Assembly (NCBI GenBank): GCA_963930775.1
Contig: OZ005703.1
Coordinates: 2,666,001-2,730,000, forward strand
Direction: 5' to 3'
Length of the DNA: 64,000 nucleotides
Origin: Cliona cf. orientalis
Taxonomy: Eukaryota; Porifera; Demospongiae; Clionaida; Clionaidae
Below are positions 6,239-55,600 of the stretch, piece after piece (position 1 is the stretch's first letter; each line of letters starts with the position of its first letter). The notes beneath the pieces were generated by a model. The model was not told where the DNA came from, made no database searches, and saw nothing but the letters and a program-made list of their open reading frames with translations. A program made the position numbers and the translations under genes.

Positions 6239-9200
6239 CTTATATTATTGTGAATGTCCATATTATTGATGGCTGTCTTAGTGAAGAGGTTGCTGGAACT
6301 GGCTCCACTGCGGTGGCTCTCTGACACAATGAACACCAGCGGATACAACAGTCTATTGCCAACAGACCTACACAGAGGAAATACTCCGTGACCCACTCTT
6401 CCTTCTATCTAGATAATTATGTGGATAGATTTTAGCATGACCTCTGCTACCTTTTTTTTAATCTAACCACCAATCCTGTTCAGGATCAGTACTGTACCTA
6501 ATCTAAGTGGTCCACACAGAAATACTATGTCATAAGCAACTGTCAAATACCAATTTAATACCACATTTCTTCTAAGAAATCGGCACAAAATTAATAAATA
6601 TGTTAAAGCCTAGCCCATAGGTAAATGTTTAACATTCCACCAAATAGTACATGTGCATTCTAATAGCACACCAAAATTGGAAGCTATTGACCATAGTTTG
6701 GTAATGGGTGTCAAAATTATTAGGGGTGCTGAATCTTAAAAGAAATAGTTGCTACTAACTTACGCCATGACTTGGTGGAACTTGGACGGATCACGAAGAA
6801 ATGCATTAGGAAACTCCTGAACAAAGAAAACAGATCTTATGCATTATTATACTAGCTATACCATATATCTGAGAATTTTCACTGGACAAAATATCACCAA
6901 GCCCAGCTACCTAACTTTGCATTACAGAAGTGTTCAGTGGAATAAAATTCATGTTAATACATAAACGTTGCCATTTTTTCTATGTAATCATTAATACAGG
7001 ACAAAACATCGCAGACAAAAATTTCACCAACAAGAGCAGATGGCAAAATTGGTGAAAATTACTCCTGGGAGAAATTTTTTACCAACTCAGCATTAAATAA
7101 TATTACTCACCTCAACTAACACAATCTTCTTTGATCTTTGATTAGAGACTCCACCCCCTGAGGTCGAAACTCCGCCCACCATCAGACTAGGGTACCTATT
7201 GGCTCTGGTCAGGAAATCCTGGAACTGCTTAGTCTGTGACTCTGGAAAAAGCACAAGATCTCCAGCAGCACCACCACCTGGGGGGATGAACTTTCATCAT
7301 ACACATATCCACATCAATACTCTGAGCTCAGAAGGATTATCCACCCACATAGTGGTCTATTAGGCAATCTATACTACATTTTATGTAAAGAACCAAGTTA
7401 CCCCTGATGCATGCATGTGCCACAAAATACCATATTAGTGATGCGGTAATTTGCTCAACTGTTTAGGAAGTCCTAAATATATATGTACACGTGTAGGAAG
7501 GCAATTCTGAATATTTCAAGTTTTCACTGATGAACAATTAACTCAGTGTTTCGTACAGTGCAGAGAAATATGAATCACTAGAACCATTATTACACATAGG
7601 ACCATGCATGCAGGATGACTTTGCCCCTTCAACATGGGGTCAAACACCACAAAACTTTCTAATGATCAACTATACAGAATGAAACACACATCATATCAGC
7701 ATATCACGTATCTGTAACTACATGAACGTACACAGTTAGTCTCATTTCTATGCCCCACATGTATTACGCTCTAATGAAATTGCTAGTCTGTTGTGTAATC
7801 CTTCTTGTCGTGCTAGAGATTCAGCTTTCTCAATACTGTTGCCATTGACATAAAATTTCTTAGTGGCAAATCCTCTGCCTACACACCCACATGTGGATAA
7901 TTCATTAATAAAGAAATCTTGAGTTAATCTCAGTGAGCATTTCAAAGCATCATCCTGCTTTTTTGATCCCTCACCGTTGGTAGCCATTTGCTTTTTTATA
8001 CCGTCAAAGTTTGCTTTGAGATGTTCAACATCTTGACTCACTTTTTCAAAAGCTACTGTTGCAGTATCTGCGTTTGATTTTAGCTGATGGATTATGCTTT
8101 GCATCTGGGTTACGCTGTCAGATAATTCACCACTGAGCTTAGCTACCTTTATGCTAGACTCATTTATTCCTCCTTCCATTATCTGCTGACTCTGACGTAC
8201 TCTTTCAACTTCCGAATGAAGTCTATTTTCCATGCTCTCCTTCAGTCTCTTCTCTATCAAGTACTGACTGCCATTAATTTTCTCGACCGTAGAAGAAAGG
8301 TTGTTCATGGCCTGCTTTAGTTCCTTCTCTATCAAGTGCTGGTCATGACGAACATTTTCAACTGCAGATGAAAGGCTTTTGATGGACTCCCTTAATTTTG
8401 TTGAATTGATATCGTGGCTTATCTGTTCAACCTCAGACGAAAAGCTGTTTATAGACTCCCTTAATTCCTTCTTTGTCAAATTGTGATCGTGGCTCATCCG
8501 TTCAACTGCAGATGAAAGGCTACTAATGGACTCCCTTAATTCCTTCTTCAGTGATTTATGATCGTGGCTAAACCGTTCAACCTCAGACGAAAGACTGTTC
8601 ATGGTCTCATTTAGCTCCTCTGTCCAGTTATGAATTTCTTCAATCCTAGAATAATGGTTGTTCGTGGCCTCCATTAGTGCTGTGGGAAACAGGTATGCAA
8701 TACTCAGGGCACCAATCAATACCACTACAAATAGTGTCCAGTATTGTGCTGCACGGCTTTGTTTCCTCTCAATTTTCTCTATTTGCTGCTGTATTTCTCG
8801 TAATTTCTTGTCACTTTGCTCTCGCTGTTGTCTTAGCTCTCGTTTGAGCTCATCTATGTCATTTTCTTTCTCAGACAAACTGTTCTTCGTGAAGGTCTTA
8901 AAAAGCAAAAGATGGACACTTGCGGCTTCCCTCATGTGCACAGCCAATTGGTGCTGTGGTTTCTTGACATCACAGCCTACGGAACTATACTCACACTCAA
9001 TGTCGCGATTTGGACAATCATTTGAAACATGGTCTGCCATTAACTGACGTTCACTTCGATACAATTGACAAAGCGTACATGGAATATCTTGAAACTGACA
9101 CCCTTCAAGCAGCTTGTCAGGTAGGGGATCCTGGTTGAGGTGATGTTCGAGTTGCGCAAGCTCTCCTGTCCACTTGCATCCCTTCTCCTGGTGTGGACAA

Positions 9201-12200
9201 TGCACCTTGTAGCCATTCAGGGTTCGCTCCAGCCACATGTTATCAGATAATGTGAACATCCGACCACAAAGAGGGCATGGCTTGTGACTACTTGCTACTC
9301 GACCAATACACACAGCACAGAAGCTATGTCCACAGCAAGATACCACCTTGGGTTGACAGAGAATGTCCAAGCAAATAGGACATTCTGCTGGTATTTCACT
9401 TGGAGGCTGCTTGACAAAGCTTACTGGATAGCCTCTGCTTGAATCCATGTTTTTTATTAGAGAAAACGTGTAGGTGCGGTCATTTTCTAATTGAAGCACA
9501 TAAAATATGATGCTATATACTGTGGTGCCATGGCAGATCATATGACACTATAAATATACAATACGGTAACCATATTTAGATAATTATGCCAAGTTCATTA
9601 TCCTAGCTACACAAGTAACCCAGCTAGAGGGGAAAGCGAACATCATATAGCTATTATATTATATGGTAGGACTAGATTGGCTTGCGAGGTATAGTACGAG
9701 AATCCAACCAACATATATTGTAAACTGCAAACTACAAGCATCCATACTATGATAGCCGAATATTTTATTTAGCCATGCTCACTAATACATGTAACATTAC
9801 GAATCTCAATAGAAATAGGATCTAATGATTATACGTACAGTAAGTTGTTCTCACAGAATGCTGATTTAATGTCACAGAACAACACTATCATAACAAAAAC
9901 ACTAGAAAATAACAGCAACATTGAAGCGACATTTCATGCTGATCTCTCCGAGTTTGTGTCGGATACAGTTACCTCGTCCTGGATCCATGGAATACATAAA
10001 ACACAATCTCAGTAAATCAAGTACAATATCGGATTCCTAGGGACAGGTGGAGGCGGTGAAACTTAGCAGACTTTTCTTACTCCGAAATATTTAATTAGCT
10101 GAACTGGTCCCAGGAGCTGTTTTTAGAGCTGTATATACTATAAATAGTTGCCTAGCTAGCTGAACTGTTGAATACTCTTCCTCCTATGTGAGTGCATGGT
10201 GACTAATAGAATACAAGGAATCTCACTTTGGAAATACATGACAATGAGGTACATATATACATGTAGCTGCTAAAGTGGTAACAGATATAGACACATGCAT
10301 AAAACAATTTATTGAAATCCTGCAGCATGCTAGGATTTTGGTTCTCCACTCCCTTTCGTCTCTAAACTTTGCATCCTTAGAAGAATCTCCTTGACTGTGT
10401 TCAAATCATTTCCTATTCCTTCAACAACTTGATTAGTTTTGCTAATTGTCAGCTTTAGCTCAACCATTTCCGCTTGAAGTATTGTCTTGACCAGAGCAAC
10501 TCTATAGTCTAATTGCTGTACTTGTCTGTCTATATCAACCTTCCTCACACAAAGATCACTCAATTGCTCTTTATGTAAATCTTGACTGCAGCTAAATTCT
10601 GAATGCCATGTCTGGTACCAATAAGCATGTACTACGCCGCCAGCCACCAGAAAAAAAAACAATATCAACATCCAGATGTGCTTTTTTGATTGCTGATTTT
10701 GTTCAGAAGCTGGTTGTTGGACTTGCTGCGACTGCTCAGTGTGCTGTTGCTGTTCTACATCCTTTACCTTTCCCTGCTGTGCTAGCTTTTCATTCATTTT
10801 TCTGTCCTGTTGAAGTACCTTCAATTGCTCTTTAATAGCATATATTTCATCACCTTCTTGGGATAAGTGATGCTGAACGAACTTGGAAAGAAGAGATAGA
10901 TGGGTACCCATTGCCTTACTCATATGCATATCTAATTCAAGCTGTGATCCCTGAAAATCACAACCCACATACCGATATTCACATTCTATTTCACGTTCGG
11001 GACTGCTGCTGCTCAAAATGTGGTGTACCGTCGGCTGACATTGACACTGATACGATTGGACGGCCTCACAATGAACCTTCTGAAATTGACATCCAGTCAG
11101 TAGACCATCTGTAGTAGATTGCAGGTTACAATGATTCTTCACTGCCTCCCTGAGCCCTCCAGTACACTCAGAGCCCTGCTCTTTGCATGTACAATGGACA
11201 CTAATCCCTCCCAACGGCTGTTTAAGATGCTTATCATCAATTAATTTTGTCTTCTGACTACAAAGCGGACATGACTTTTTACCACTCTCAATTTGATCGA
11301 TACAAGCAGCACAAACACTACGCCCACAACATGCTGCTAACTTGGGGTCACAGAGAATATTCAAACACACTGGACATTCAACCTCAGTTTCTTCAGGAGA
11401 CTGATTGTCTCGGTAGCCTCTTCTTGGATTCTGAACAGCCATCTTTACTTCTTAACAGTAAACTAAATCCGTCTACAAGAAGGCGTGATTTTTGGAACAC
11501 AATAGCGATCCACTGGCATGTCACAAGACTAAGTATTCATATCATCTTACACTTGTTATTCCATTAATTTTTATTGTAAGTGATCTCAAGATATCAATAG
11601 TTATTACGTCTGCACTTGTGCATAATACACATGCAGTCCCATGATCACATTTATATTATTCTTAGACGATACAAGCACTGCTGCACGTGATTGTTGTATA
11701 TTTGCAATGGTATTTACATGTAGGAACCCACCAAGCAGGGAATAGCTTTATGTACACAAGTGTATGTTCAGTTGAACAGTTGCCACTACTCTTACTAAGG
11801 GTGGACACAGGTCAGAGTGCTATTAAGCAAAGCAGACTGCCCTTTACCTGTGTTCTGCAACATTCTATTGAACATGCACATTATTTTTTATAACATCCTG
11901 CTTGAGCAACTGTCCAAAAAAGTCGTTAGCTTGCTTGTAGCTCCCCTTGCAAGACTTGAGAAGATGAAGTCAGAACCTACTAAATGTACCTTCATGATGA
12001 CCACTTGGACAATATCTTCTCACGAATTGAGTTGCTTGCCTATTAAACTGCAGGCCACTGAATGTAGATCATCACAAAAATACCCAGGTATCTGCCATGT
12101 TCTCATCACTTATCGTGCACGCACACAATATAAATTTGCAATTCTTTTTAAATTAAAGGGGTTCATATAGCATCAGAAAAGCACACACAATAAAGACTAT

Positions 12201-14711: not shown

Positions 14712-15060
14712 GCTTGTAGGTCAAAGGTCATCCCCAATAGTACTGCGCATGCATACTGTAGCTGCATAATAATTGAAACTTCTCAGTATTTAGCCATAAT
14801 ATGGTTATTGAAAACAAGTTTTCATTAAAAACACATGGAGGGGAATATATAATCTATGAGTGTATTCACATGATCATAACAAGCAAGTTGCATCATGAAT
14901 CATACCATATGATAGACTATGACTGGGTATGATCTAATACTATTGTTGCTCAGTGTAATTACAAACTGGATACCGGTATGACTTTCCCAAAGGTAATCAC
15001 TATAATAATATTATTATGAATATTGACTATACATGTAGTGTATCAGACTGCAAATCCAGC

Positions 15061-17489
15061 ATGGCTTCTGCCAGATTTATTTTCTTTTCTCTGGTGCATG
15101 TACTAGTTGTAAATTTTGTGGTGAGCCAAAACAGAATCATGTCACAAGGTAAGAACTTAGTCTTAAACTAATGAGGGCTGGGGGCTAAAAATAGCTGCTA
15201 CAGTTGATTCTTACATACTATGACCAATACTCACCTGAATACAAGGATCATAGTTAGCTAGCTAACTATGATCTCGGTATCCGAGTATTGATCATATTAA
15301 GCTAACCGTATGATCCTCGTATCCGAGTATTGGTCATAGCTATAATATAGCTTAGTGAAATTGCCAACAAATATTATGCTACAATGCATTGTATACTAGA
15401 TCTCCAGTTAACTCTGATTGATCACAATTCTCAGCCGATGCAAAAGGTACCTCTTACTGTTAATATTCGAAGGAATATCACCTTAGTTCCTGGGTGCTCC
15501 TATGAAGTTAACTGCAATCATAAAAATTTAATGGGAGGATTAATATTCACTGGATGGTTTCATTTCAATGACACACCAGTAACAGTACTAGATCAAAAGC
15601 AGCTGTCAAACACTACTCTGGTAAACATCTATGCTATGGAGGTGGACACAAACAATTGGAAGTTGGTCTTTCAACCATTTCAAGGATCAGACAGTGGAGT
15701 ATACACCTGTAGAGATGGGGCTACTAGTAACGTATCGTTGGATATTAGACCAGGTATAAAGCCACTGGATAATTATTTTTACTGAAAGTAGCTATTCTGT
15801 GCATATTATTGTAATAATTATTATACAATTGATTGAACTTAGATATTATTACCAACACGTAGGCAATCCCACTGTTTTATCCTCAGCTCCTGAACTAAGC
15901 CTCCGTCATGGAGTTCAAGTAGGCAGTCGTCCAACTCTGGTAGCATTTGTATCGGGCAATCCTCAGCCCACTGAATCAGATATCATCTGGTATTTCAATA
16001 ATCAGTCACTCCCCAGTAGTGACATCCTAGAAGATGGTAGTGAGCTTTTACTACCTCGCTACATTGGGTTAGATTTAGTGGGGAGATACACATGTCAGGT
16101 GACTACATCTGCTGGGACAGCTTCCGATGACTTCTTGTTCACCGTCACACGTGAGTACTACAGTAATTCATCAACGTGCAACTCTATGAACAATATCAAT
16201 ATTTCAGGTCAACCTGATGTTGTATTGTCCCCTATGGATGGCCAGCTAGTTGTAGTTAATGATAGTGTGGCTATGCTAACTTGTTCAGACTCTGTAGGCA
16301 TCCCTACCCCTTCATTCAACTGGACCCATGCGGGCAATCCCATGAATAGAATTAATGTCATTGCAGGTATGACATAATTATATTACAGCTATATACATGC
16401 GTAGCAAATAGTAGTAACATTATCAGCAATTATGTACACAGATAATCGTGTTATGATTCTCAAGAGTGCTAATGGGCAGTCTTCTTCATCAGTGCTGATT
16501 ATTGATCCCATCCTTACCAGCGACAGTGGTAGGTACACTTGCAGAGCCTTCAATGATGCTGGACACTCCTTTCAAGAAATTTATGTTGAAGTTCAGTGTA
16601 AGGTTGATTCATGGTAATCTTGAATGTTTTGGTAACTTTTCCTCCTTCCTCCATACACAATGTCATATCAACATGATCTCAGTCAAACCGAATATCAAGC
16701 CGTACCTTTCCTCCACTTCAGTACAAGTGGCCATGGGGAGTAATGCTACACTACAGACCCTACTAGTGGATGCCAACCCAATGAATGTTACCGTTCGATG
16801 GCTAGGACCCTCCAGGGAACTCATTACTGAAAGCCAATACGGCAGTTTTAATGCCAAAAATCGTACTGTGTACACAGTTACTGTGATAAATTTGACCTCG
16901 TCCTGTGAAGGTGTTTACACATGTGAAGTCGAAAACAGTATTGGAATATCCACTGTAAATTTCACACTCTTAATGTTTGGTGAGGGACTATTACACTACA
17001 GTATCATACTAAAGGGTAAATTTCAATCGTGTTGATATTATTAGTTTTCTTTTGTAACAGCACCACCTACCCTCTGTCACATTGATGGATCGAAAGGAGT
17101 TAAAACAGTCATTACTAGAAATCGAGGACCACGGGTCACATTGATAGCATATCAACATGGAAGTGTACCTTCAATCATTGCTGAAAATATATCCTGGAAT
17201 AAAACAACATTTGAGCATGAGACTAAGCTAGAATTCGAAAATTCTACCAAGTACATGAACAGTATTACGAATTCAGATTATCGATCACTCCTTAACTTAA
17301 CGATTATGTCACCATCATTCGAAGATTCTGGCTTGTATACTGTCACTATCATTCATGAAGCTGGTGCAGTCAATCTGAGTTTTCAACTTGAAGTATTAGG
17401 TATAATTATTATGTAGTCTAAGAAGTTTGCACATAGAGAAGGATTAAGTATAATTCTTTACTTCTCTAGAAGGTATCTCTCTCTAGACT

Positions 17490-17530
<41 letters not shown>

Positions 17531-18881
17531 TCTCTCTCTCTCATCGATGTACCATAGATCCTCCACCCCCTCCTATTATGCTCAATGCTACACTAATAGC
17601 TCCTTGTGTGATAGAAGTCAAGTGGGAATTGTCTGATGATCCACTTAATACTACTGCAGTACCAGTCTACATCCTTGTAGAAGTGAGCCTCTCCGATCCA
17701 ACTGAATGGATAGATATTGGTTACTTTCTTGTTAATACCACCAAATCTAAGATAGACCTCTTCTTACAAGGAGTCCTGAACAGAACAGCTATAGCAAATG
17801 AGTTGAGTTTACGTGCTCGTAGCGGCACTGATGCTGGAAACATCGGTGTAGGAGAATACTACACAGAAAACTCTACATTTTACATCTTCAGAGAAAGTAA
17901 GCATAATCAATGTTACAGATGTTAAATTAATGCATGTTTAATTTGGACATAAAATTTAATGTACGTAGGTTATAATAGTCTGCTTCATGTGCGTTGTGTA
18001 ATCCATGATGATACATAATAACATCCATAAATATTATTGAATTGCACGGGCTATATTTATCTTACATTAATAATATTTATAATAGTACCTGATCCTCCTA
18101 CTGGATTGAGAGAACTAGAAGTGTCTAATGAAACAACAACACTACAATGGATACCTCCAGCAATTTACAACTGCACAATTTCAAATCAACTATCCAGCAC
18201 ATACGCATGCAATAGTATCTCATACTTAGTTACTTGTCAGCTTGTAATGGAGTCTACTTCAGTAGCAATACCTGACGAATTGATAAGCGTTGAGGTGCCT
18301 GGTGATAAAACGTGTGCCACTATTACTCTGAGAAAGGGTAAGACATACAAATGCTCTGTTCAAGCTCAGAACCAATGCCAACTGCTCTCAAATCACAGTG
18401 ATTCAATAGAAATCCATATTCCAGGTAAACTTGTTCACAGCTTTTCTAATTCTTATGATTCATGATTCCCCAATAGCAGAATCTGATGATGTCTCTTTAC
18501 CTGCTAAAACCAACATTATGACTGTGATAATTGGAGTTTTGTTCAGTGTTGCAACACTACTATTTTTGTCCATATTGGTGGTTTATTTCACGTTGATCGT
18601 ACAGCACAGGAGGTAAATGATAATTAAATTTTAAACCGTTAACAATAATTAAAATTTTTTATGAGCACATAATAATTATAATTTTAATCAGATCAAAAGC
18701 TACTGTATATTTGACATCATCAGCCACACCTACCTTGCAAACTCCCCCAAGTAATGACTCACCGCACACAGATGATGACGAGGCTATCACATACACTACA
18801 TTGAAAGAGTTGTGCATTCAATTAGCAGATTTCAGAGAGCAGGGCCTACCAACTGCACACTGGGACCAAGAAGGACACTGA
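15061..18881 (+). CDS. Ig/FN3 transmembrane receptor with ITIM-like tail, copy 2
   Basis: A complete 898-aa type I membrane protein in 11 exons: 15061-15148 (signal peptide), 15400-15753 (Ig1), 15863-16150 (Ig2), 16208-16366 and 16427-16597 (Ig3), 16683-16979 (Ig4), 17061-17399 (Ig5-like), 17558-17896 and 18086-18424 (FN3-like), 18480-18612 (transmembrane), 18692-18881 (tail). All internal junctions up to the transmembrane exon are phase 1, typical of shuffled extracellular modules, and the total length is divisible by three. Ig1 and Ig3 have paired Cys; Ig2 and Ig4 lack the B-strand Cys, and Ig5 lacks both. The helix is VIIGVLFSVATLLFLSILVV. The tail contains ITYTTL, fitting the ITIM pattern [IVLS]xYxx[LIV], plus VYLTS. 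The ligand is unknown. Copy 1 at the window start is its paralogue. Confidence 0.88.
15216..15346. repeat. Compound inverted repeat in receptor intron 1
   Basis: Three related arms lie here: atgaccaatactcacctgaa..ggatcatagttagct, its inverse agctaactatgatc..ggta.ccgagtattgatcat, and a third agctaaccgtatgatcc..gtatccgagtattggtcat. They can pair alternatively. It may be nested foldback insertions. Confidence 0.55.
17499..17541. repeat. CA/CT microsatellite in a receptor intron
   Basis: An (AC)n run is followed by (CT)n directly upstream of the acceptor for the first FN3 exon at 17558. Confidence 0.85.
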
Positions 18882-19071
18882 ATTATACAGCTATAGTATA
18901 GAACCATCGTACACAACTAAAATTAATGCAATGTACTTGTTTAGATTACGTATAAGCTTATACAATTCTAGGGAATGCCTTATCGCGCATGCTCATAATT
19001 CGGATGGGTGGGGCTCGTGAGGCCATCCTGCGCCGCAGTGCACCCACACAAATCACATGATTAGCGATAAG

Positions 19072-20481
19072 ATGGCCTCGAAGCAACAATTGGCGTGTGG
19101 CTACGACTGTAAATTCGTGGAGGAGCCAGCCAAGGAGCTCCAAACGGAGTGCTCAGTTTGTCTCCACGTGCTCTGCAAGCCAGATATGGTGAGCTGCTGT
19201 GGGGAGAAATTCTGCCACAGCTGCATCGAGCAAGTGATCAAGAAGAAAACGCCCTGCCCTCACTGTGGCAGTACCCAATTTGACACAATGACGGACAAGA
19301 AGCTGGAAAGGGAGCTGAATGCACTCAAGGTGTACTGCACGAACGAAAATGAAGGTTGCAGGTGGGTGGGGGAGTTGAGAGACCTGGAAAAACATCGTAA
19401 CTCTGTGAATAAGTCTACTTTTGCCGACATCAAGAAAGGATGTGAGTATGAGAAGATTCTATGCTCCAAATGCAAGAGAGAGGTACAGAGGTCACTGTTC
19501 GGTGACCACCTATCGAAGGGATGTAGAGTGCCAGATGGTGAATGCCAGTTTAATTTTGCTGGCTGTAAAGCGAAGGTTTCCGTTAAAGACATGAAACAGC
19601 ACCTTGAAGAGAACATGGCAGTTCATTTGTCACTTATCACGGATCTGACTCGTAACCTATCCAGTGAGAATGCAAGGAGCAGAGAATTACTGGCAAGACT
19701 CTCAACTGAAGCAGAGGACAGACAAGTGCAACTACAACACCATGATCGAGGAGAAGTTGTTCAGCAAGTTGCTGGTGAAGCTTTCGTACGGCAGCCTCCT
19801 CAGAGAAGACATCGAGGAAGATCGATAAGTTTGTGGGTCGGTGGTGCATTGGTGATGGTTCTTTTGAGTGTGTTTATTGGTCAAAATAAGGACACAGTGA
19901 TCAACATTGTGGGAGATTTCATGACATTAAGGGGAATCAATCAGGATCGTGATATTATGTTTGACCATTCTGAAATAACGTTAGCTCTTACCGATCTAGA
20001 AAGCAAAGTAAATACCATGGAAAGGGATATGAACACTTTAAAGCGGTCTGTAAATGATAATCTCAACAAAATTCAAGTGACAGTGGAGGATGTAAGGAAG
20101 CTAGGAAAAGAAACTGAAGGTTGGAGTACTGTGTCAAAGAACGTTGAAAATCTGAAATCTCAAATACCGGTATCTGATGATCTCGAGAAAAAGTTAGATG
20201 ACTTATCAAATGATGTATCCAATCTTGCTCAGACCATTAAGAATTTTGTCAATAAAGAAGATCTGCAGATGCTGAGGCAAAGATTGGACACACTAGCTGG
20301 ATTACAGAGAGAGCTTGATTCACTGAGAATTAAAGTAGATAGTTTACCACGTCCGTTGACTCGAGATGAAATAGCTACACTTGTCTTGGCAGAGCTCGCG
20401 GCACATCGACCTCCCCACCCTCCACCTCATCACCACCACCACCATGGTCACAAACATGGTGGATGCAGAGGACATCATTAG
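19072..20481 (+). CDS. Membrane-anchored RING-like/zf-TRAF protein with His-rich C-terminus
   Basis: An intronless frame. Start taken as MASKQQLACGY at 19072; an upstream in-frame ATG at 19057 adds five residues. The RING-like region contains CSVC, CCGEKFC (His replaced by Glu) and CPHC, and zf-TRAF fingers follow (GCRWVGEL, GCEYEKILCSKC, GCKAKV). After an acidic/basic linker comes a transmembrane helix at about residues 252-271 (LWVGGALVMVLLSVFIG), then a long coiled coil. The C-terminus is Pro/His-rich with six consecutive His followed by GHKHGG, a possible metal-binding tail on the far side of the membrane. No MATH domain. It lies 190 bp downstream of receptor copy 2 in the same orientation but is a separate transcript by structure. 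Confidence 0.88.
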   Translation: MASKQQLACGYDCKFVEEPAKELQTECSVCLHVLCKPDMVSCCGEKFCHSCIEQVIKKKTPCPHCGSTQFDTMTDKKLERELNALKVYCTNENEGCRWVGELRDLEKHRNSVNKSTFADIKKGCEYEKILCSKCKREVQRSLFGDHLSKGCRVPDGECQFNFAGCKAKVSVKDMKQHLEENMAVHLSLITDLTRNLSSENARSRELLARLSTEAEDRQVQLQHHDRGEVVQQVAGEAFVRQPPQRRHRGRSISLWVGGALVMVLLSVFIGQNKDTVINIVGDFMTLRGINQDRDIMFDHSEITLALTDLESKVNTMERDMNTLKRSVNDNLNKIQVTVEDVRKLGKETEGWSTVSKNVENLKSQIPVSDDLEKKLDDLSNDVSNLAQTIKNFVNKEDLQMLRQRLDTLAGLQRELDSLRIKVDSLPRPLTRDEIATLVLAELAAHRPPHPPPHHHHHHGHKHGGCRGHH

Positions 20482-21138
20482 CTATAGATTGTTGAGTGGA
20501 GTGGTACTAGAGTGTTCACTGCATGCGCATACAAGCTAAAGTAGATGGTAGCTATTATTATAGCTTCAAACTCCCTGCATTATGCTTGACACTATAATAT
20601 TATGTAGGCCTAATACATTGATAAGTATTGTTAACTAGAAAATATGATGGCCTCAATTCCTCTCCTAGCCCTTAAGTATTATGCATTGTCCCTTTACATT
20701 ATTCTCTGGTATTGTGTCAATCTTCTTATCAGTACTGTAAGCTCAAAATAATAATTATTATTATACTGCAGCCCTGATCCAAAAATTGTTAGCTATGCGG
20801 CCCTAGCTGTAGGCTAACTCAGTATCCGTAGTTTCATCGAAATATCTAAGTTGGAATGCAGGCCTGTATTACGCATGCTCGGACCCAAATCGAATGAGGA
20901 AGCCCCTGTACTTGAGTGTATCGCGCGTAGGCTGGGCGTAGGAAGGTAGCTGGACCCTACATGGTGAGTGGAATATTTTTCGGATAGAGCCATATGACCC
21001 CATTCCACTGACTTCATATTATAAATAATATTGTTGATTCACTGTCAGATCATAATAGAGTACACTTCCAACTCATGGGGACAGAGACTCATATGATTTG
21101 CTGTGATGAGTCCTATGTGAATTTATAAAATCTAGACT
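20482..21138. other. Spacer between two TRAF-like genes
   Basis: AT-rich, with no supported gene. It presumably holds the 3' UTR of the upstream gene and the promoter of the downstream one. Confidence 0.5.
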
Positions 21139-21954
21139 ATGGAAGGAAAAAGGCAAGGATATGCTGTTGAATTTGTTCATAACCCCCCAAAAGAAGTACA
21201 AACGACATGTTCAGTCTGCCAAAAAGTTCTCTTCCAGCCCAAAATGGTTGACTGCTGTGGTGTCCGCTTTTGTGCTGCCTGTCTCATGGTCAAGGGTGAG
21301 TACTCGTATGGAAGGCCACTATGCCCTGAGTGTGGCCAGCCATTCAACTCTATGCCCGACAAACAACTAGAACGTAATCTCAACGACTTTGATGTACGCT
21401 GTATCCACCGAAAGAAAGGTTGCTGGTGGACGGGAAATCTTGGCTCACTTTCGAAACATTTAAATGAAAATCCTAAATCAGAATGGGACTTGTATGATGG
21501 ATGCTCATATCAGTCAGTAAAGTGTACTCGCTGCAAATCACCTTGTCAGAGATCCCAGATGCGTAACCACCTTGAAGAATTATGTAGTCGGCGTGATTTG
21601 GATTGCTATTACAGGAGTGCTGGTTGTGATGTCCGTAAGCCAAAACCTGAGCTTGAAAAGCACGCAAAAGAAGCTTTTGTTGTTCACCTATCACTGGTCA
21701 CCGATCACTTAAATAAACGCATCAGCCAGCAGGAGCAAAGTATTATGCGTTCAACTTCACAGAGTATGCAATCTACAAAACGTGATTTGGAGGCAGCAAG
21801 GGACAGAGAGATTCGGTATGTTCAAATTCAGCTGAACGAGCTAAAGGAAAAGCAAAATGTGTTCTGTGTAGGTGTGATAGTAGTAGCAATTTTTATAGTT
21901 TTTTCCATCATTGTTGTCTTTGGACATTTTAATGAAAAATTAAGTAAACTGTAG
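21139..21954 (+). CDS. Tail-anchored RING-like/zf-TRAF protein
   Basis: An intronless 271-aa frame starting MEGKRQGYAVEF. It contains CSVC, CCGVRFC (RING His replaced by Val) and CPEC, then zf-TRAF fingers (GCWWTGNL, GCSYQSVKCTRC, GCDVRKPKPELEKH), a short coiled coil, and a C-terminal transmembrane helix at about 241-262 (VGVIVVAIFIVFSIIVVFG) followed by only about nine residues. The layout is that of a tail-anchored protein with the fingers in the cytosol. It is the closest relative of 25244-26044, sharing the AVEFV..PPKE.QT.CSVC and CQRS segments. No MATH domain. Confidence 0.87.
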   Translation: MEGKRQGYAVEFVHNPPKEVQTTCSVCQKVLFQPKMVDCCGVRFCAACLMVKGEYSYGRPLCPECGQPFNSMPDKQLERNLNDFDVRCIHRKKGCWWTGNLGSLSKHLNENPKSEWDLYDGCSYQSVKCTRCKSPCQRSQMRNHLEELCSRRDLDCYYRSAGCDVRKPKPELEKHAKEAFVVHLSLVTDHLNKRISQQEQSIMRSTSQSMQSTKRDLEAARDREIRYVQIQLNELKEKQNVFCVGVIVVAIFIVFSIIVVFGHFNEKLSKL

Positions 21955-22585
21955 GTTTTATAATAATGCTGTATACACATATAGCTTGCCGTTTATAATA
22001 ATATACAATGTGTCACTGTCATGCATAATGCTATAAATAACTATTCGCTCAAATTCAACAAGGATAAAATCAAAGAGTCTCAGATTACAATGTGTGACGC
22101 ATGGGTGTGGCACATGGGCGTGGTACAGGAAGTGACCGCAGCTGACATACAGCGACCACAGAACTGGTTGAACCAGATTCTATAGACTAGTTTAGTCTAG
22201 TTTTTGCTTGTAAGATGTCAGATGCTATTTTGATGTAAGAGTGAATGATATGGCAACTCTGTTATACCAACCGTTGGCGCAAGCAGCAGGGTGTTACAAA
22301 TGAATACTGTAGCTAGGGTCCCCAATGGGATTTGCATTATTATAATTATGTTTGTATAATAATTATTATTATAATTTGAAGCTGCTACATTGATTTCATG
22401 CATGAAAAGTGGTGCATAGGCACTTAATTGTCGGAGACAATAATATTATTATTCAATGTATATATACGAAAAGGAGTAGATGGATGGTAATAATATTATT
22501 ATGCATAATTAAGTTTAAGGATTGTATAAATCTGTAATGTCACATAATTTTGTGTAAAAATTGTGATGTGGAATGAATTGAGTCT
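21955..22585. other. Convergent intergenic spacer
   Basis: It separates the 3' ends of the genes at 21954 (plus) and 22586 (minus). Repeated ataatattattat runs are present; no gene is seen. Confidence 0.5.
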
Positions 22586-23971
22586 TCAAGCAAATCTGTA
22601 GCAAAGTGAAAGTTCAATGGTGTCATCGACACTACTACTGTCCAAATTATCACAAATGTGGATCTTCTCTATAAGGCAGCGGGGACCATCATATTCACCA
22701 ATCCGTTTACACCCAATAATGCACCCAGAAGAAAAGCAATGCAACCGCAGGAGTCTCCCTGCATTAGACGTACGAGATCGTTCCATTTCTCGTTTTAGTT
22801 TCAAGTTGATCAAAGTCACTTGGATTCCTTTCCAGCCATCGCTTATAAGTGGGGAGTGAATTGGCCACGTCAGAAGATGATCATACTCGCCCTTGAGGAG
22901 GTATAGCGACACATCTCCACTAGCTAGAACTCCGATACACATTTTGTAGCCATAACCTTCCTTGGGATGAAGGTGAACATAGAAAGGAGGGCTTATCCAC
23001 TCTTCGCTGGTGTACTTTGAGTACGAATCCACAAGCAGGCTGACTTCATCAGATTCTGATACCAAAGCAAAGAGTTGCTCACTCAAGATAGACCGTATCT
23101 CTTGTAAAGGTTGTCGGTGTTGAGGAGGGCACAGTGGAACCAGGGAATCAATGTGATTGGAAACAGCTCTCATCTTATCAACCATCACTTGGTTTCGCTT
23201 TCGCTCCAACTCATTTTTCTCTCTTTCAGATTGCAATGACAGCATTGTCAGCAGTAAGTGCTGCTGAATAGCATTTGTCTGATGTTCATCCACCTTGGAA
23301 CGTATTGGTTTCTCCTTGCAGCCAACCTTTTCAAACGGGCAGCTAACTGGTTGATGTGTGCACACCTCTTGGTGTCGCTCCACTTCTTCATGATTCTGTG
23401 ACAAAGTTTGCCCACAGCCTTGAGAGCAGACGACGACAACTTTCTCACATACTTTATGATGTTCTTCAGTCATCCACCTATACGTACCCCTAGCTTCTCC
23501 ACAGTGTCCACAGGTAACTTTTCTATCTGGGCACTCTTCGCTCTCATGCTTGGTTCTATCTTTCTTCATAAAGCGGCTACCACAGCCAAGTATACACGTC
23601 ATATACACACAATCACAGATCTTATTTACATGATCACCAATTGATTTCACTTGCCCCACCCACTTACAGCCATCTTTCCACTGAGGACAGTGTGCATCCA
23701 GGCTTGAAATTTTTCTTTTCATATCAAGATCACGCTGGTGGCAAAATTCCTCCCCCTCTGCTCGACAATGAGGGCATCTTTTCTTATTGAACGCACTGAA
23801 CGAGTGCTCGAGACAAGACACACAGAAGCGCTGACCACAACAACCAGTCAAATGAGGATCTCGGAATACCAGGCGACAAATACTGCAAATGAACTCATTG
23901 CGCACTTTCTTTACGAACTTGTAGTCGTAGCCTCCGTAGTTAGAAGTCGCTTTGCTCACGCTGGCCATCAT
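22586..23971 (-). CDS. TRAF-type protein with RING-like, zf-TRAF and MATH domains
   Basis: An intronless 461-aa frame starting MMASVSKATSN. The RING-like region is CSIC, CCGQRFC (His replaced by Gln), CPHC, and several zf-TRAF fingers run to about residue 235. A coiled-coil stretch precedes a C-terminal MATH/TRAF-C-like domain with the family signature GYGYKMCIGVLASGD..LYLLKGEYDHLLTWP. TRAFs trimerise through the coiled coil and MATH domain and link receptors to ubiquitin and kinase signalling. It is the only one of the six paralogues here with a MATH domain and the only one without a transmembrane helix, so it may represent the ancestral layout. The expected final beta-strands of MATH are diverged. 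Confidence 0.9.
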   Translation of the reverse strand: MMASVSKATSNYGGYDYKFVKKVRNEFICSICRLVFRDPHLTGCCGQRFCVSCLEHSFSAFNKKRCPHCRAEGEEFCHQRDLDMKRKISSLDAHCPQWKDGCKWVGQVKSIGDHVNKICDCVYMTCILGCGSRFMKKDRTKHESEECPDRKVTCGHCGEARGTYRWMTEEHHKVCEKVVVVCSQGCGQTLSQNHEEVERHQEVCTHQPVSCPFEKVGCKEKPIRSKVDEHQTNAIQQHLLLTMLSLQSEREKNELERKRNQVMVDKMRAVSNHIDSLVPLCPPQHRQPLQEIRSILSEQLFALVSESDEVSLLVDSYSKYTSEEWISPPFYVHLHPKEGYGYKMCIGVLASGDVSLYLLKGEYDHLLTWPIHSPLISDGWKGIQVTLINLKLKREMERSRTSNAGRLLRLHCFSSGCIIGCKRIGEYDGPRCLIEKIHICDNLDSSSVDDTIELSLCYRFA

Positions 23972-24242
23972 GACATTGTGTGTCAGAGTATGGATCAGGT
24001 TTAGCTTAGGCTAGCTGGCAGCGCTGCATGTGACAATCGTGTGATCAACATCATAAGGAGGCGGGGCTGGCATGCTTACCCTTTGGCCTTCAAGCTAGCT
24101 ATAGTAATATACAATTCCCACAAATCCCAATGAGGTTTGAAGCCCAAAGCAGAATTAGTATGCTGCATGAATTTATCCTACTGGCACCACAGACAACATC
24201 ATACATTTATTATGCAACAACTAGCTAGCATACCAACTACTG

Positions 24243-24350
24243 TAGCCTTGACCCCAGCATCCCCGATCTTTTTCAATGCATACGAGAAAAAAGTCACTTG
24301 TATCCACTTCGCGTGCATTGAAAAGATCGGGGAGGCTGGGCACAAGGCTA
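24243..24350. repeat. TAGCCT-type foldback element 2
   Basis: The left arm tagccttgaccccagcatcc and ccgatcttttcaatgca-like sequence pair with tgcattgaaaagatcgg, ggaggctgggcacaaggcta on the right. It is 108 bp long and starts and ends like the TAGCCTCGTCCCCAG family. Confidence 0.7.
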
Positions 24351-24412
24351 CTACTATAGATCTGCTGCTTGTGGAGCAACGCTTGACAATCACTAGAGCT
24401 CTGTAGAGCACA

Positions 24413-24993
24413 TACCCCGCGCGCACATTGCGCAATCTATAGATTCTGAATTGCTTTATGTGCATGGTTATAATAGTTTTTGTGAACTTCAGAAAATTAG
24501 TGGAAATGCTGCTTAACTGTACAATGTCGTAGCTACCGGAGGTCCCAATAACAAAAGCACTCTCTCTGCACCAGATCTAGACACTAGGAGATATGAACTG
24601 ATACGTCCAAATTGTCTGTTGTAATAGTAATAAGCTGTCTTATATTATCTTTCTCTTCCATAGGGCTGCAGATTTCAGCTCCTTCAGCGGATTCGATATA
24701 GATTCAAGAACATTATTAATTTCGACGATCTTTACCAGTCTGCATAATAATTGTCGGCTACTTAGTTGTGCGCATGAGCAGACAACACAATGAGCATGTA
24801 TTATTCATTGAGTAGGCACTGTCGATAGGCGTGGCTACGTTAGCTAACAAAAAGGCACTATTTGTGACGCCCGTGGACCGTATCCATCGATTTGACGCAC
24901 ACTGAAGCCAGTTTTTCGCCGAATTCGATTGATTTGTTGTGCTTACGAGTCGCTTAGATGTCTACATCTCGAGATATGGCGATTTTTGTGCTC

Positions 24994-25026
<33 letters not shown>

Positions 25027-25066
25027 CGACCGATTACTTTACCCCCTTGCGCATGCGCGCGGGGTA
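24413..25066. mobile_element. Non-autonomous element with TACCCCGCGCGCA ends, copy A
   Basis: The left end taccccgcgcgcacattgcgc is mirrored at the right by gcgcatgcgcgcggggta. An inverted-orientation relative lies at 48377-49139, with shared interior landmarks (cgaattcg, acatctcgagata, gacgatctttacca, ttgtgcgcat). A tandem acgaca tract lies near the right end. Confidence 0.7.
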
Positions 25067-25243
25067 ATAACTACAATGTCATGTATATGAAGTGAATGAT
25101 AAAAGGGTACTTAGTGCTGCCAAAAATTAATTAAAAGGGGGGGGGGAGGGAGGGGAAGTATTGTGAATCAGACCTCCAGATCAATGTATTGGTCTGGTTC
25201 ACGAAATTAGGGTCTAGAGTGCATAATTTGAAGATCAGAAAAC

Positions 25244-26044
25244 TCAGTAACCTACAGCAATACCGACCAGTACCACCACAACTGCTGAAAGGGCTAAAAT
25301 TCCCCATTTGAGTTTGTCAATTTCCTGGAGACATTCAGCATGCTTTCTCCTCAAACCCTCCAGATTCGCATTGACTACTTGAATCTCACGAGTCCTCTCT
25401 GATGTCAACTCCCTTGTTGCCACCTGTGCATTAATCTCCTGCTGGGTGATGAGGTTGTGAATGTGGGAAACGGCCAGGGACAAATGAGTCGGCACAGCTT
25501 CTCTCATGTGCCTCTCAAGCTCAGGCTTCGGCTTGCGAACTTTGCACCCAGCATATTTGAAGTGACAGTCCAAATCACGTCTGCTACACTTATTTTCAAC
25601 GTGGTCACCCATTAAAGATCGCTGACACGGTGATCTACAACGAATGCACTTGACTGCTTGAAATGGACATCCCTGCCTCAAATCCTGCTCTGACCTAGGT
25701 CTCTCGTTCAAATGCTCTAACAGCGAACCAAGCTTGCCCTTCCACTTACAACCTTTCTGCTTGTGGCTGCAGTAGACTTCAAATCCGCTCAGAGTTCGTT
25801 CCAGTTGCTTATCGGGCATGGAAGTGAAAGGTTGGCCACAGAGCGGGCACAGCTGCTGCCTGCCCACCGACAACTCAACCTCAGACAAACACGACGAGCA
25901 GAAACGATAGCCACAGCAATCGACCATCTTGGGCTGCGCGAGAACTTGTAGACACACGGAGCACTCTGTCTGTAGCTCCTTTGGAGGCTTGCGCACGAAC
26001 TCTACGGCGAAGCCCTCTCGCTTTCCTTCTCTTCTTTCATTCAT
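25244..26044 (-). CDS. Tail-anchored RING-like/zf-TRAF protein
   Basis: An intronless 266-aa frame starting MNERREGKREGFAVEF. Its CSVC, CCGYRFC (His replaced by Tyr), CPLC region is RING-like. Zf-TRAF fingers include GCKWKGKL, CPFQAVKCIRC and GCKVRKPKPELERH, followed by a coiled coil and a transmembrane helix at residues 247-266 (WGILALSAVVVVLVGIAVGY) that ends the protein. That is a tail anchor with no luminal part. Its sister is 21139-21954. No MATH domain. It is divergent from the beta-trefoil gene, with only 230 bp between the two start codons. Confidence 0.88.
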   Translation of the reverse strand: MNERREGKREGFAVEFVRKPPKELQTECSVCLQVLAQPKMVDCCGYRFCSSCLSEVELSVGRQQLCPLCGQPFTSMPDKQLERTLSGFEVYCSHKQKGCKWKGKLGSLLEHLNERPRSEQDLRQGCPFQAVKCIRCRSPCQRSLMGDHVENKCSRRDLDCHFKYAGCKVRKPKPELERHMREAVPTHLSLAVSHIHNLITQQEINAQVATRELTSERTREIQVVNANLEGLRRKHAECLQEIDKLKWGILALSAVVVVLVGIAVGY

Positions 26045-52683: not shown

Positions 52684-55600
52684 ATGGAGCTAAAATTGTC
52701 ATGGCTACGATTCCTGGTGACTCTTGCGTTTGCAGGAGCAGCGCTAATCAAGTGTGACGGTAAGTTTGTCGGCAATTATTCGGTTGACTGATTGTTTTTT
52801 ATTGCCTTTGACAGCTGATTTTACTCAAACGCGACCGCGCTTTGTTTGCGTAGCCTAAACATTGATAAGATTTGTATTGTGTCCGTAGAGTATTTTACTA
52901 GTTGTATTCATTCTGTAGCCTCGTCCCCAGTCACCCCGACTCCCCAGAAAAAGATCGGGTGACTGGGGACGAGGCTGTCGCAGCAAAGGTGATCTTGTAG
53001 CTAGATCTACCAAGACTAATTGGTCATAATTAAATGTTAGTGCATGTACACATAGATTATCATGCAGCTAGCTAGCTAGCACTCTGATCCGAAACTGAGC
53101 ATCTGGATCACACTATTGTTAAAGTATGTTGATGCAAGCAATTCAAGTTGCTCTGTAGCACAATCAATTATCAATCTGCCCTCATACCTTCATGATATCA
53201 TGGTCACCTCAGCGGTGCGCCATGAATATCCACTGTACTCTGTCTTGGAGAACATGCAGGTGTTCAGGGATGATAACATTATGCATGTGCACACATTTCA
53301 TATGCCCATTGAGCAAGGATAACTGTAGTATGCATGACATTGTTGTATTGTTCACTACTGTGCATGCGTGGGTCCTGCTATAGTTGATTTTATCAAGGGC
53401 TTATAGACTCCTTGATTTTATAATAGACGAGCAGCGTGATTTGTTATGGAACTGTCGCAACAATTAGAATTTCCTCATTTTTATCGCTTTTACCCTCACA
53501 TACGCACACATGCATACACACACGTGTATGCAGAAGTCCAAAGAATCTATCAAAGCAGAATATCTGTGACCAACAACAATCAAGTCAGTGTTGATACATT
53601 TGAAGTTATAGGACTTGCGAGTGTCGAACTAGGAGCTGATCTTTCTGGTGCAAGTCCACCTACGTACGTCTTTGACTGCAACACTACACTCAACAATGGT
53701 ACAAATATTACCTGGCGTTTTAACAGTGAAGCTCCACGCTTTGAAATAGGCCCAATTCCCAACTCCCAGAATGGAAGGAGATTATCAACCTCAGGTATCA
53801 TGACAAGTGATCTGGGTGTGTACACCTGTCTGGACACCTACATAAATACCAATGTATCCATTAACATCACACAAGGTGAGAGATTATGCTTATCGCTGTG
53901 AGTTCACTCGTAGCTACAAATGGGAACGTTTTAAGTGCACAAGTAGAAAGATCAGTAGAGCTCATGTATTAATAGCAAGAGAGTCAGCTATTTTATCACC
54001 TTCTCAACTGACATGGGTGGGTGGTATAATGTTGTTGTTATGTTCTCGTTTGCAGATAATCCAGCAATTCTGCCCGTGAATAGAGTGCTTCGAATCATGG
54101 AAGGTACCGCTGCAACGCTGCAAGTCTACGTGTCTGGCTATCCACTTGTAACTAGCGATCAAATCCACTGGTATAGACCGAACGGCACCGAGATATTGGA
54201 AGGCCACGCTACATTTCAAGATGGACGTAAGACTATGGTCCTTAGTGAGTTGCAGTCGACTGATGGAGGCCTGTATCGCTGTGAAATCACCACTAGCTAT
54301 GGAAACCGCAGCACCTTGATTCAGCTGGATGTATATGGTATGAAGACTACTTGATGCAATAATACACAAGAGGGAATTTCCTCTTCAAATTTGTTGGACC
54401 CACATGGTGGTTGATATTGCATTCAGTGTACCTATTGCATTATCCTTTTTGTATATAGGATGCTGAATGATCACTCGACCCTGAAGGCCTTCCTATTTGG
54501 CATGCATCCAGCCATGTGTGCTGTATGTGTAGTTCGTGCATGTATGCATGCTGGAGTATTGGCACCTGTAGTCTATTCACAGCAAGTTCCTCACGATACT
54601 ACTAGTCACGATTATCACTCACTACAATTGCAGTCTTGGCAATTGGCATGCTCAAAGATGATGGATACATATTCTATGCTTACACCTGCATTGTCTTGTG
54701 TACCCACATATTTATGAATATCTGCATATTTGCTATTGTACAGGTCAGTCTCCACTACGAGTGTACCTGGGCAGAATATTCGGTTCACCAGTGGAGGTTG
54801 AAGTATTTCCCGTCCAAGGTCTGGCTACCGTTGAGCTGGTCGCAAATGGGCCAACCTACTACCTTGACTGCAACACGTCCAGGAACGATGGATCGGGGAT
54901 AATGTGGCAGAAAGTTGACGGTGAAAATCGCTTCTCAGTCAGTGACGTGGCCAGTAGTGCTAGCAAGAGGCTGAGCCTTGCTCGACTTGCTGAGAGCGAT
55001 CTGGGTCTCTATGAGTGTTTTGATAATCAATCTGGTGCTGGAGACAGGGCTATTGTCAACATCACAACAGGTAATTATTTCAGTAGGATTGAGCAATCTG
55101 GCTTCTGTTGCTTAATTTGAGAAAGTACAACCATGAACCAATTAGGCAACAATCACAATATCCTTCTTTGTACAAGATTACCTGACCATAGAACTGCCTG
55201 TAGTCACCTCAAGTATGTAATTCAGTTGCTTTATGCTGCTATTCACCAAATTGTCCTAATTTCCATACCTTATATGGACTTTTGTGGTCCACTTCAAAAG
55301 CCTATGACTATACCAATTGTACAGATAATCCTGCTGTGTCAGCAATAAATCAAACAGTGGAAGTGCTGGTAGGTGGTCAAGCTCTACTGCAGGTCTATGC
55401 GTCTGGATACCCGTTGATCAGCAGTGATAGTATCAGCTGGTACTGGCCGAATGGCTCCGTCATCCAAGAGAATGAGGCTGAGTTCATGAATGACGGGAGG
55501 ACATTGTTTCTAGTCAACGTTCAGTTGATGGATGCCGGTGCGTATCGCTGTGAAGTCACTCTCCCGGGCACTGGTGGAAATAGGAGTGCTCTCATTCAAC

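Follow-up and report, generated by a model that had tools for sequence, protein, structure and literature searches.

Putative membrane-spanning TRAF-like proteins, with and without a MATH domain, in the sponge Cliona cf. orientalis

TRAFs are soluble proteins whose C-terminal MATH domain, in the cytosol, docks onto the tails of receptors of the TNFR, IL-1R and TLR types. Can a TRAF-like protein be placed in the membrane by a helix of its own, and is MATH given up in exchange? This question is raised by a gene cluster of Cliona cf. orientalis (assembly GCA_963930775.1, contig OZ005703.1). We analyzed a window of 64,000 nt, positions 2,666,001–2,730,000 of the forward strand, in which the segment 7748–26044 holds six single-ORF RING/zf-TRAF-type genes (Table 1). 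The ORF check, in which all frames are open, together with Pfam and alignment, agrees with the initial annotation on the number and position of these genes, and searching all six frames of the window revealed no seventh RING-zf gene. The term intronless, as used for the six genes, means a single open frame in genomic DNA; long single frames are frequent across the RING/zf-TRAF family of this genome, so the single-frame state is nothing special to the cluster. For P0001, the second Met (residue 32) is the likelier start over the first ATG by comparison with the related gene L001.

Table 1. Positions of the six RING/zf-TRAF-type genes and their features in the 64,000-nt window.
Feature	Position	Strand	Remark
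P0001, TM-TRAF: RING + zf-TRAF + coil + predicted TM + long coiled coil	7748..9541	-	597 aa from first ATG
P0001 predicted TM segment YWTLFVVVLIGALSIAYLFPTAL	8675..8743	-	hydropathy; 12/5000 shuffles as high
P0001 tandem repeat, 75 bases (25 residues), 3.3 copies, in coiled coil beyond TM	8357..8599	-	
P0002, TM-TRAF: divergent RING/zf region + predicted TM + short coiled coil	10330..11442	-	370 aa
P0002 predicted TM segment IWMLILFFFLVAGGVVHAY	10621..10677	-	hydropathy and shuffles
P0003, TM-TRAF: RING + zf-TRAF + predicted TM + coiled coil + His-rich tail	19057..20481	+	474 aa
P0003 predicted TM segment ISLWVGGALVMVLLSVFIG, RRHRGRS just before	19825..19881	+	hydropathy and shuffles
P0004, TM-TRAF: RING + zf-TRAF + predicted C-terminal tail anchor	21139..21954	+	271 aa
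P0004 predicted tail-anchor segment CVGVIVVAIFIVFSIIVVF	21865..21921	+	0/5000 shuffles as high
P0005, RING/zf-TRAF/MATH paralogue without helix, outside TM clade in RING-zf tree	22586..23971	-	461 aa
P0005 partial MATH match, sole MATH-coding stretch found in window	22856..23011	-	six-frame search
P0006, TM-TRAF: RING + zf-TRAF + predicted C-terminal tail anchor	25244..26044	-	266 aa
P0006 predicted tail-anchor segment WGILALSAVVVVLVGIAVG	25250..25306	-	15/5000 shuffles as high

Domains were called with Pfam at E≤1, and each family's own cut-off was applied. Five of the six genes carry zf-TRAF (PF02176) above the cut-off, and P0002 has no PF02176 match at E≤1. A RING-type model exceeds its cut-off in P0001 and P0006, while the RING matches of the remaining four fall under it (for P0004, best E 0.011). 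The RING-zf region, Cys pattern included, is nevertheless alignable across all six genes. As for MATH, we also searched with a profile built from the Cliona genome itself. P0005 reaches 26.5 bits in Pfam, under the cut-off of 27.4, and i-E 7.1e-7 with the genome-built profile. No MATH was found in the other five genes by Pfam, the genome-built profile or the six-frame search; outside P0005, the best MATH score anywhere in the 64 kb is i-E 8.1. Within the window, the six frames show no hidden downstream exons that would add MATH to the five genes, a counter-case raised by the initial annotation.

These five genes encode strong hydrophobic helices, a feature foreign to the soluble TRAF family and present in five of the six genes. 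The helices were called by Kyte-Doolittle hydropathy over 19 residues, in place of a trained TM predictor, with the tail of each protein shuffled 5000 times as null model and 55 helix-free, MATH-bearing family ORFs of the same genome as controls. Peak values range from 2.14 to 3.34, and 0 to 24 of the 5000 shuffles match the observed peak across the five proteins; among the controls, one of 55 ORFs reaches 1.6 (value 1.62). Accordingly, Pfam, the genome-built MATH profile and hydropathy confirm five genes with a helix and without MATH. Their TM codons are variable, with pN 0.60 between P0001 and L001 and 0.56 between P0006 and P0004. Since the TM sequence is poorly conserved, it appears that only hydrophobicity is retained, and separate helix gains or swaps among these genes and their closest relatives are possible.

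We then compared the cluster with the rest of the family, for which the genome contains at least 150 zf-TRAF matches. The initial annotation had proposed a tree of the zf-TRAF region, and we built one from the RING-zf region of 71 of the 94 family ORFs, with 23 short or partial ORFs dropped. As a result, the five window genes form one clade of eight rows with L001, L003A and L003B (support 99/97), whose members outside the window are located on the same contig and on another one. This distribution supports the helix as a trait common to the clade rather than a set of isolated accidents. L003A has a weak helix, its peak being equalled by 118 of 5000 shuffles. L001 has the order RING-zf-TM-MATH-TM in a single open frame (MATH i-E 2.6e-13), and L003B encodes a TM segment and then MATH (1e-28) beyond one in-frame TAG. 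Moreover, L028, a gene outside the clade, reads RING-zf-TM-MATH in a single frame (MATH 4.4e-34), and its zinc-finger stretch is longer, like those of soluble relatives such as L025; its helix is apparently independent of the clade's. A single origin for all TM genes including L028 is disfavoured: the starred branches require two changes (AU p 0.038).

The idea that MATH was simply swapped for membrane placement is not supported in that form: L001, L003B and L028 carry helix and MATH together. As MATH lies beyond the helix in these three, gaining a helix and losing MATH can be told apart as two steps, and on this comparison the absence of MATH is not the defining trait of the clade. Probably, a helix first arose in the linker ahead of MATH, and the loss of MATH followed. 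P0005 had been suggested to show the ancestral form. In the RING-zf tree it groups with L023/L036 at a wide distance from the five, a position that makes it poor evidence for an ancestor; the AU test leaves room for a clade uniting it with the five (p 0.082). In a MATH tree, poorly resolved because it has too few columns, P0005 falls into one unstarred group with the MATH domains of L001 and L003B, and the common descent of the latter two is left unsettled.

Which side of the membrane would each part face? Basic residues lie ahead of most helices, with equal counts on the two sides in P0004 (2 and 2) and nearly none in L003B (1 and 0). N-glycosylation sequons number 18 in 1303 aa on the C-side of the helix vs 5 in 1564 aa on the N-side (Fisher p 0.0024), and the C-side is also richer in them than the stretch that follows the zinc fingers in soluble relatives (49 in 10849 aa; p 1.7e-4). 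The excess comes from four proteins; P0001 alone has seven C-side sequons, P0002 and P0003 have none, and without P0001 the p value is 0.045. When sides were flipped protein by protein, 4 of 64 arrangements were as extreme. We favour an arrangement with the RING cytosolic and the MATH or coiled coil exoplasmic. Because the charge and sequon patterns put the post-helix part on the exoplasmic side, the layout is probably more than tethering. Past the helix, P0001, P0002 and P0003 each show coiled-coil periodicity that none of 300 shuffles equals.

The two sides also differ in conservation. In blastn comparisons of the pairs P0001/L001 and L003A/L003B, DNA identity is 84–86% in RING-zf and 88–92% in a 3' element, and the middle between them gave no blastn match in either pair. 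For P0001/L001, RING-zf has pS 0.24 and pN 0.10, as expected of a region under purifying constraint. This pattern suggests a constant inside and a variable outside. In separate scans, a TNFR cysteine-rich domain matched none of 89 scored candidates, its control also matching nowhere, and TIR gave 36 matches.

Taken together, we tentatively read the five genes, at a little short of an even chance, as part of a TRAF-like protein family whose members would cross the membrane once, N-in/C-out (type II-like), and be putative one-component E3s. A soluble RING-zfTRAF-linker-MATH protein would have gained a TM helix in its linker, which would leave RING/zf cytosolic and send MATH to the exoplasmic side. 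Copies would then have diversified: some kept MATH outside, P0001, P0002 and P0003 dropped it while retaining or expanding a coiled-coil ectodomain, and P0004 and P0006 were shortened to a tail anchor. The exoplasmic part may bind or cluster, with the coiled coils oligomerising the protein, and clustering would gather the cytosolic RING/zf modules for E2 recruitment and ubiquitin chains; neither a separate receptor nor a cytosolic MATH-tail contact would be needed. Tail-anchored forms may serve as membrane-placed partners or modulators. A further-reaching version, possible rather than probable, sees one-component receptors made from TRAFs, with the RING/zf ligase module inside, one helix, and a fast-varying MATH/coiled-coil recognition part outside. 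In this version the helix would have entered between zf-TRAF and MATH on what look like at least two occasions in a single genome, within a large family where several gene pairs keep RING-zf while the C-terminal part diversifies.

Rather unlikely, in our estimation, is that the helix does no more than dock a RING/zf ligase at the membrane of the ER, mitochondria or endosomes, for protein quality control or turnover, in the manner of TRIM13/TRIM59, the post-helix part being a ligand-free lumenal leftover. RING proteins with TM helices form a large, well-known class, of which humans have 49 by prediction (PMC4021871). The five genes combine a RING with a predicted TM helix, as transmembrane RING E3 ligases do, with only P0001 and P0006 exceeding a RING cut-off, and just 10 and 1 residues follow the helix in P0004 and P0006. 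Sequons and charge cannot separate the plasma membrane from the ER, and the sequons are equally compatible with an ER-lumenal side. However, several members keep long coiled coils, or MATH with sequons, past the helix, and a variable post-helix side next to a constant RING-zf suits recognition over housekeeping.

Membrane-bound decoys, whose weak RINGs would pair with soluble TRAFs through zf or coil, hold them at membranes and damp signalling, seem improbable to us. P0002, P0003 and P0004 do fall under every Pfam RING cut-off, four of the five TM genes lack the His that canonically serves as fourth RING ligand, and the at least 150 zf-TRAF matches of the genome offer proteins to regulate. But this His is replaced nearly family-wide (5 of 71 members retain it, P0001, L001 and L003A among them), and 68 of 71 have an additional Cys as well, so that the replacement may represent an alternative zinc site, not a loss. 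We consider it more improbable still that the helices are artefacts, namely hydrophobic stretches never inserted or lying in unspliced introns, or that the genes are pseudogenes. Part of the family may indeed be decaying, since L002 is a frameshifted P0002-like copy and L003B is stop-interrupted. The last ~75 codons of P0001 have their match in a frame-broken element that lies downstream of L001, which may mean a recent origin of the P0001 C-terminus; this tail was rejected as a dispersed repeat, with only two copies, itself counted, in 362,500 bases. The TM codons are unconserved in two pairs, and a polyA-like signal within 600 bases past the stop occurs in P0002 only, which we judged uninformative. 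Against this stand the five frames open throughout, the constraint on RING-zf, the segregation of the helices with one clade, and P0002/L002, in which the TM is identical in protein and changes less than the whole (dN 0.016 vs 0.057, few changes).

The preferred reading, a family of membrane-spanning TRAF-like proteins, can be set beside known systems. TRAFs are textbook cytosolic adaptors that depend on a receptor, and such a clade, with relatives keeping MATH past the helix, would be a case of adaptor and receptor merged through simple helix gain; a system constant inside and variable outside would let one ask how animals with large TRAF repertoires recognize microbes or self. Among the matches listed in the open-licence PMC literature, exact phrases included, nothing on point was found for TM-TRAFs. 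Like TRAF1-6, the Cliona genes have an N-terminal RING and TRAF-type zinc fingers, and among solved relatives, P0006 and P0005 score highest with TRAF6 chains; unlike TRAF1-6, the TM genes have a helix, with MATH missing or beyond it. TRAF7 and PDZRN/LNX are RING/zf-TRAF proteins without MATH, with WD40 or PDZ instead and no membrane helix. TRIM13 and TRIM59 have a B-box where the Cliona genes have zf-TRAF, and no long ectodomain; the Pfam tables of the six genes (for P0001, the best 25 of 39 families) contain zf-TRAF and neither B-box nor astacin. Meprins, which are astacin proteases bearing a MATH/TRAF domain outside the cell, have no RING and a different membrane order. With their RING, zinc-binding module and hydrophobic C-terminal region, and no obvious C-terminal domain besides (PMC4021871), TRIM13 and TRIM59 are the nearest known layout for P0004 and P0006, and we infer a separate origin. 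Meprins share with the layout proposed for the Cliona proteins a MATH on the exoplasmic side, which for meprins is hypothesised to have been taken over from a TRAF in the chordate lineage (PMC3503706). The meprin and Cliona MATH domains would then be independent exports, and if this is true, the export of MATH to the exoplasmic side happened more than once.

All six single-ORF RING/zf-TRAF genes (P0001–P0006) proposed in the initial annotation were found at their positions in the window, C15:2666001-2730000 of an assembly of 216.8 Mb in 149 contigs. Five of them exceed the Pfam cut-off for zf-TRAF, the exception being P0002, and a RING-type Pfam model passes in two (P0001 and P0006) and stays under its cut-off in the remaining four. 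Pfam MATH was detected in P0005 alone, slightly under the cut-off (26.5 vs 27.4 bits), and is backed there by a profile built from the same genome (i-E 7.1e-7). The two models agree that the sixth gene has MATH and the other five have none, as had been claimed. No other MATH of note occurs in the window: with the own-genome profile, the runner-up has an i-E of 1.9 among ORFs of 60 aa or more and of 8.1 when all six frames are searched with masked stops, and therefore the objection that downstream exons add MATH is without sequence support within the window.

To place these genes in their family, zf-TRAF was searched in the genome. Of 504 candidates, 150 were scored and every one matched, which makes this number a lower bound; the list contains no place on C15 and is thus incomplete, having missed the window genes themselves. 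Besides at least 150 zf-TRAF matches, 36 TIR matches were counted genome-wide, many of them on C8:0.25-1.06 Mb. TNFR_c6 had no match in six frames, but a TNFR control likewise matched nowhere, so that this result does not show its absence. The family sample comprised the window and 40 loci (362,500 bases), and 94 ORFs in it match a RING-zf profile; outside the sample lie, among others, the C5 loci, the C4:1.6 Mb cluster and the C2 loci past 1.75 Mb. MATH is present in 58 of the 94 (own-genome profile, i-E<1e-3), and Pfam TRAF-mep_MATH in 57 of the 76 ORFs from this set that were aligned (E<=0.01). Since short or split frames account for many of the 36 ORFs that lack MATH, absence of MATH alone is not unusual in the family; its combination with a helix is. 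P0006, P0001 and L001, used as queries, all point to the same closest relatives beyond the window, at C15:2654k (locus L001) and C7:1.556 and 1.560 Mb (L003 genes A and B).

Helices were called from hydropathy values rather than by a trained TM predictor. The Kyte-Doolittle peaks over 19 residues are 3.34 in P0004, 2.53 in P0006, 2.31 in P0003, 2.26 in P0001 and 2.14 in P0002, and were reached by 0, 15, 20, 12 and 24 of 5000 tail shuffles each, respectively. P0005 peaks at 1.13, and one of 55 MATH-bearing family ORFs without helix reaches 1.6 (1.62). The peaks stand far above shuffles and controls, in support of the single predicted TM helix in each of the five MATH-less proteins. A peak of at least 1.6 anywhere was seen in 16 of the 94 RING-zf ORFs, namely the five window genes, L001, L003 A, L003 B, a piece of L002, L028 and six more (L006, L015, L010, L012, L036 and L009), among which L012 alone exceeds 2.0 (2.13). 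We rejected L012 as a TM gene: the hydrophobic end of this 165-aa ORF begins where its relatives L009 and L010 continue differently, and was judged a frameshift tail. The weakest TM member is L003 A, whose counted peak lies at the ORF end (118 of 5000 shuffles equally high), with a shorter sub-threshold hydrophobic stretch, WIVLLLLGGIVHAYMY, upstream. L002 contains a close copy of P0002, 91.8% identical in DNA over 2.8 kb (flanks included), whose reading frame shifts after the RING and ahead of the later zinc-finger part.

Features in the window and in related loci of the same genome
Feature	Coordinates	Strand	Description
P0005	window 22586-23971	-	sixth window gene, with MATH and without helix
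Ig/FN3 receptor-like exons	window 15351-18700: Ig 15760-16377, 16499-17035; weak fn3 18031-18465	+	between P0002 and P0003; resemble a single-pass receptor
Ig-type exons	window 53440-53901 (weak), 55204-55641	+	within 53440-61650
Protein kinase ORF	window 60017-61039	+	after the Ig-type exons
Kelch repeats	window 60844-61650	+	overlap the kinase ORF in a different frame
L001	C15:2653524-2654882		453 aa, one frame; RING-zf, helix, MATH (i-E 2.6e-13), second C-terminal helix
L002 copy of P0002	L002:536-1737 (C15:2660536-2661737)
L003 gene B	L003:6173-7834 (C7)		RING-zf, helix, in-frame TAG, then same-frame 237-aa ORF with MATH (1e-28)
L028	C17:2361106-2362857		584 aa, one frame; helix and MATH (4.4e-34)
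L004/L005	C9:429-448 kb		tandem soluble TRAF-like genes

Of the 94 ORFs, 71 went into the RING-zf tree after removal of 23 that are partial. The five window genes, L001, L003 A and L003 B form one clade of eight rows (support 99/97), in which P0001 and L001 are sisters (100/99). P0005, offered as the possible ancestral form, was placed elsewhere, with L023/L036 on a long branch, although a joint clade with the eight was not rejected (AU p 0.082). L028 stands apart, starred branches forcing two changes of the TM label, and its union with the eight was modestly rejected (AU p 0.038). Among the matches listed, only one other stop-free match (C3:2042523) aligns through the L028 helix positions and is itself without helix.

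L001, L003 B and L028 carry both helix and MATH. In L003 B, the MATH part past the TAG is well preserved, and the TAG may be a recent break, read-through or an assembly error. The linker from zf to MATH measures 168 residues in L028, 150 in L003 B and 81 in L001; for the 55 control MATH ORFs, its median length is 50 (quartiles 35 and 93). The simplest reading is that the helix arose first, in the linker, and that MATH would have been lost later in P0001 and other branches; re-acquisition of MATH, or several helix gains within the clade, are still conceivable. A quick MATH tree (143 columns, 89 rows) leaves this order undecided: L003B is the row with the shortest path to L001, and the two share an unstarred group (89%) with P0005, L038, L039 and two L023 rows.

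Between P0001 and L001, the DNA is 84% identical in the RING-zf and 88% in a 3' element. Their middle part yields no blastn match, and a sliding comparison puts identity there at background level; L003 A and B give 86% and 92%, again with no blastn match in the middle. At codon level, pS is 0.24 in the RING-zf vs 0.77 in the coil for P0001/L001, and 0.16 vs 0.33 for L003 A/B (0.66 in 30 codons around the helix). Either RING-zf gene conversion or C-terminal exchange would fit. A constant RING-zf with a variable C-part can occur in soluble relatives too, and other pairs are opposite: in the C2 cluster, dS is 0.14 in RING-zf vs 1.4 in MATH for L008/L009, and 0.30 vs 0.08 for L013/L008. Pairs were limited to RING-zf dS <0.6, with 72-110 MATH codons and at most 61 pairs computed per cluster. 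The tandem L004/L005 genes yielded the C9 pairs, where MATH dN is 0.20-0.30 vs dS 0.20-0.34 in the six pairs that four of the five genes form with each other (RING-zf dN/dS about 0.25), and 0.35-0.40, below dS of 0.67-0.96, in four pairs with the fifth gene; their MATH, the binding domain, is a candidate for relaxed or diversifying selection. The final ~75 codons of P0001 (in window 7731-7974) lie within the shared 3' element, and this tail may have turned coding recently, because the element that it matches, some 1.2 kb downstream from L001, is frame-broken.

Past the helix, heptad-type periodicity is strong in P0001, P0002 and P0003, at a level that none of 300 shuffles of each attains, and P0003 ends in a His-rich tail. 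P0001 is strongly periodic ahead of its helix too, and this gene contains a 75-base repeat in 3.3 copies. The simple heptad score is not high in P0004 and P0006 (136 and 62 of 300 shuffles, both before the helix) or L028 (64 of 300). In the 15 residues on either side of the helix, basic residues before/after number 5/1 in P0003, 4/1 in P0001 and L001, 2/0 in P0002 and 3/0 in L002, and P0006 has five before and one residue in all after; the bias is absent from P0004 (2/2), L028 (4/3) and L003B (1/0). Sequons (N-X-S/T, no P) were counted in the six proteins with a substantial C-side: 18 in 1303 aa past the helix vs 5 in 1564 aa before (Fisher p 0.0024), and 49 in 10849 aa past the zinc fingers of soluble relatives (p 1.7e-4 against the TM C-side). 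Within MATH, there are 6 in 358 aa past the helix vs 40 in 6584 aa of soluble relatives (p 0.03). The counts are uneven (P0001 7, L003B 5, L028 4, L001 2, P0002 and P0003 0), with leave-one-out p from 0.0002 to 0.045 and 4 of 64 per-protein sign flips equally extreme. Together, sequons and basic residues provide moderate evidence for a predicted N-in/C-out topology, under which the second helix of L001 would return its last residues to the cytosol.

RING ligand positions were set by alignment to TRAF6 in 71 rows from the window and 40 loci, where His is expected as the fourth zinc ligand. That His is present in five rows, two rows fall outside the pattern, and 68 have an additional Cys directly before the third ligand. 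His replacement and extra Cys are thus family-wide, and are compatible with either presence or loss of E3 activity. The helix codons are not conserved (pN 0.60 for P0001/L001, 0.56 for P0006/P0004). We tentatively favour a one-component membrane TRAF-like E3 over three rivals. An E3 tethered to an organelle, in the manner of TRIM13/TRIM59, is possible and less probable; a membrane decoy is unlikely, and artefact or decay is more doubtful still. What we propose as one-component membrane E3s would represent a new architecture variant with a putative function, judged from sequence and hydropathy in part of the family of one genome.

The receptor-like exons between P0002 and P0003 are accompanied by a hydrophobic helix, TNIMTVIIGVLFSVATLLFLSILVVYF, in the open stretch after fn3. 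In the sponge Halichondria panicea, TRAF genes are described at constantly high expression, and the LPS response includes TRAF2/5/6-annotated genes (PMC8242945, in part). Among the listed titles and abstract openings of open-licence papers, none names a transmembrane TRAF-type protein, and passages of PMC6321704 and PMC11229196 contain nothing on TM-TRAFs. According to excerpts of PMC8195603, TRADD-N expansions occur without matching MATH expansions in the same organisms. Transmembrane RING ligases are themselves a known class (PMC4021871, excerpt), and exoplasmic MATH is known from meprins, for which a TRAF co-option in chordates was hypothesised (PMC3503706; meprin TRAF domain, PMC9848320; both in excerpt).
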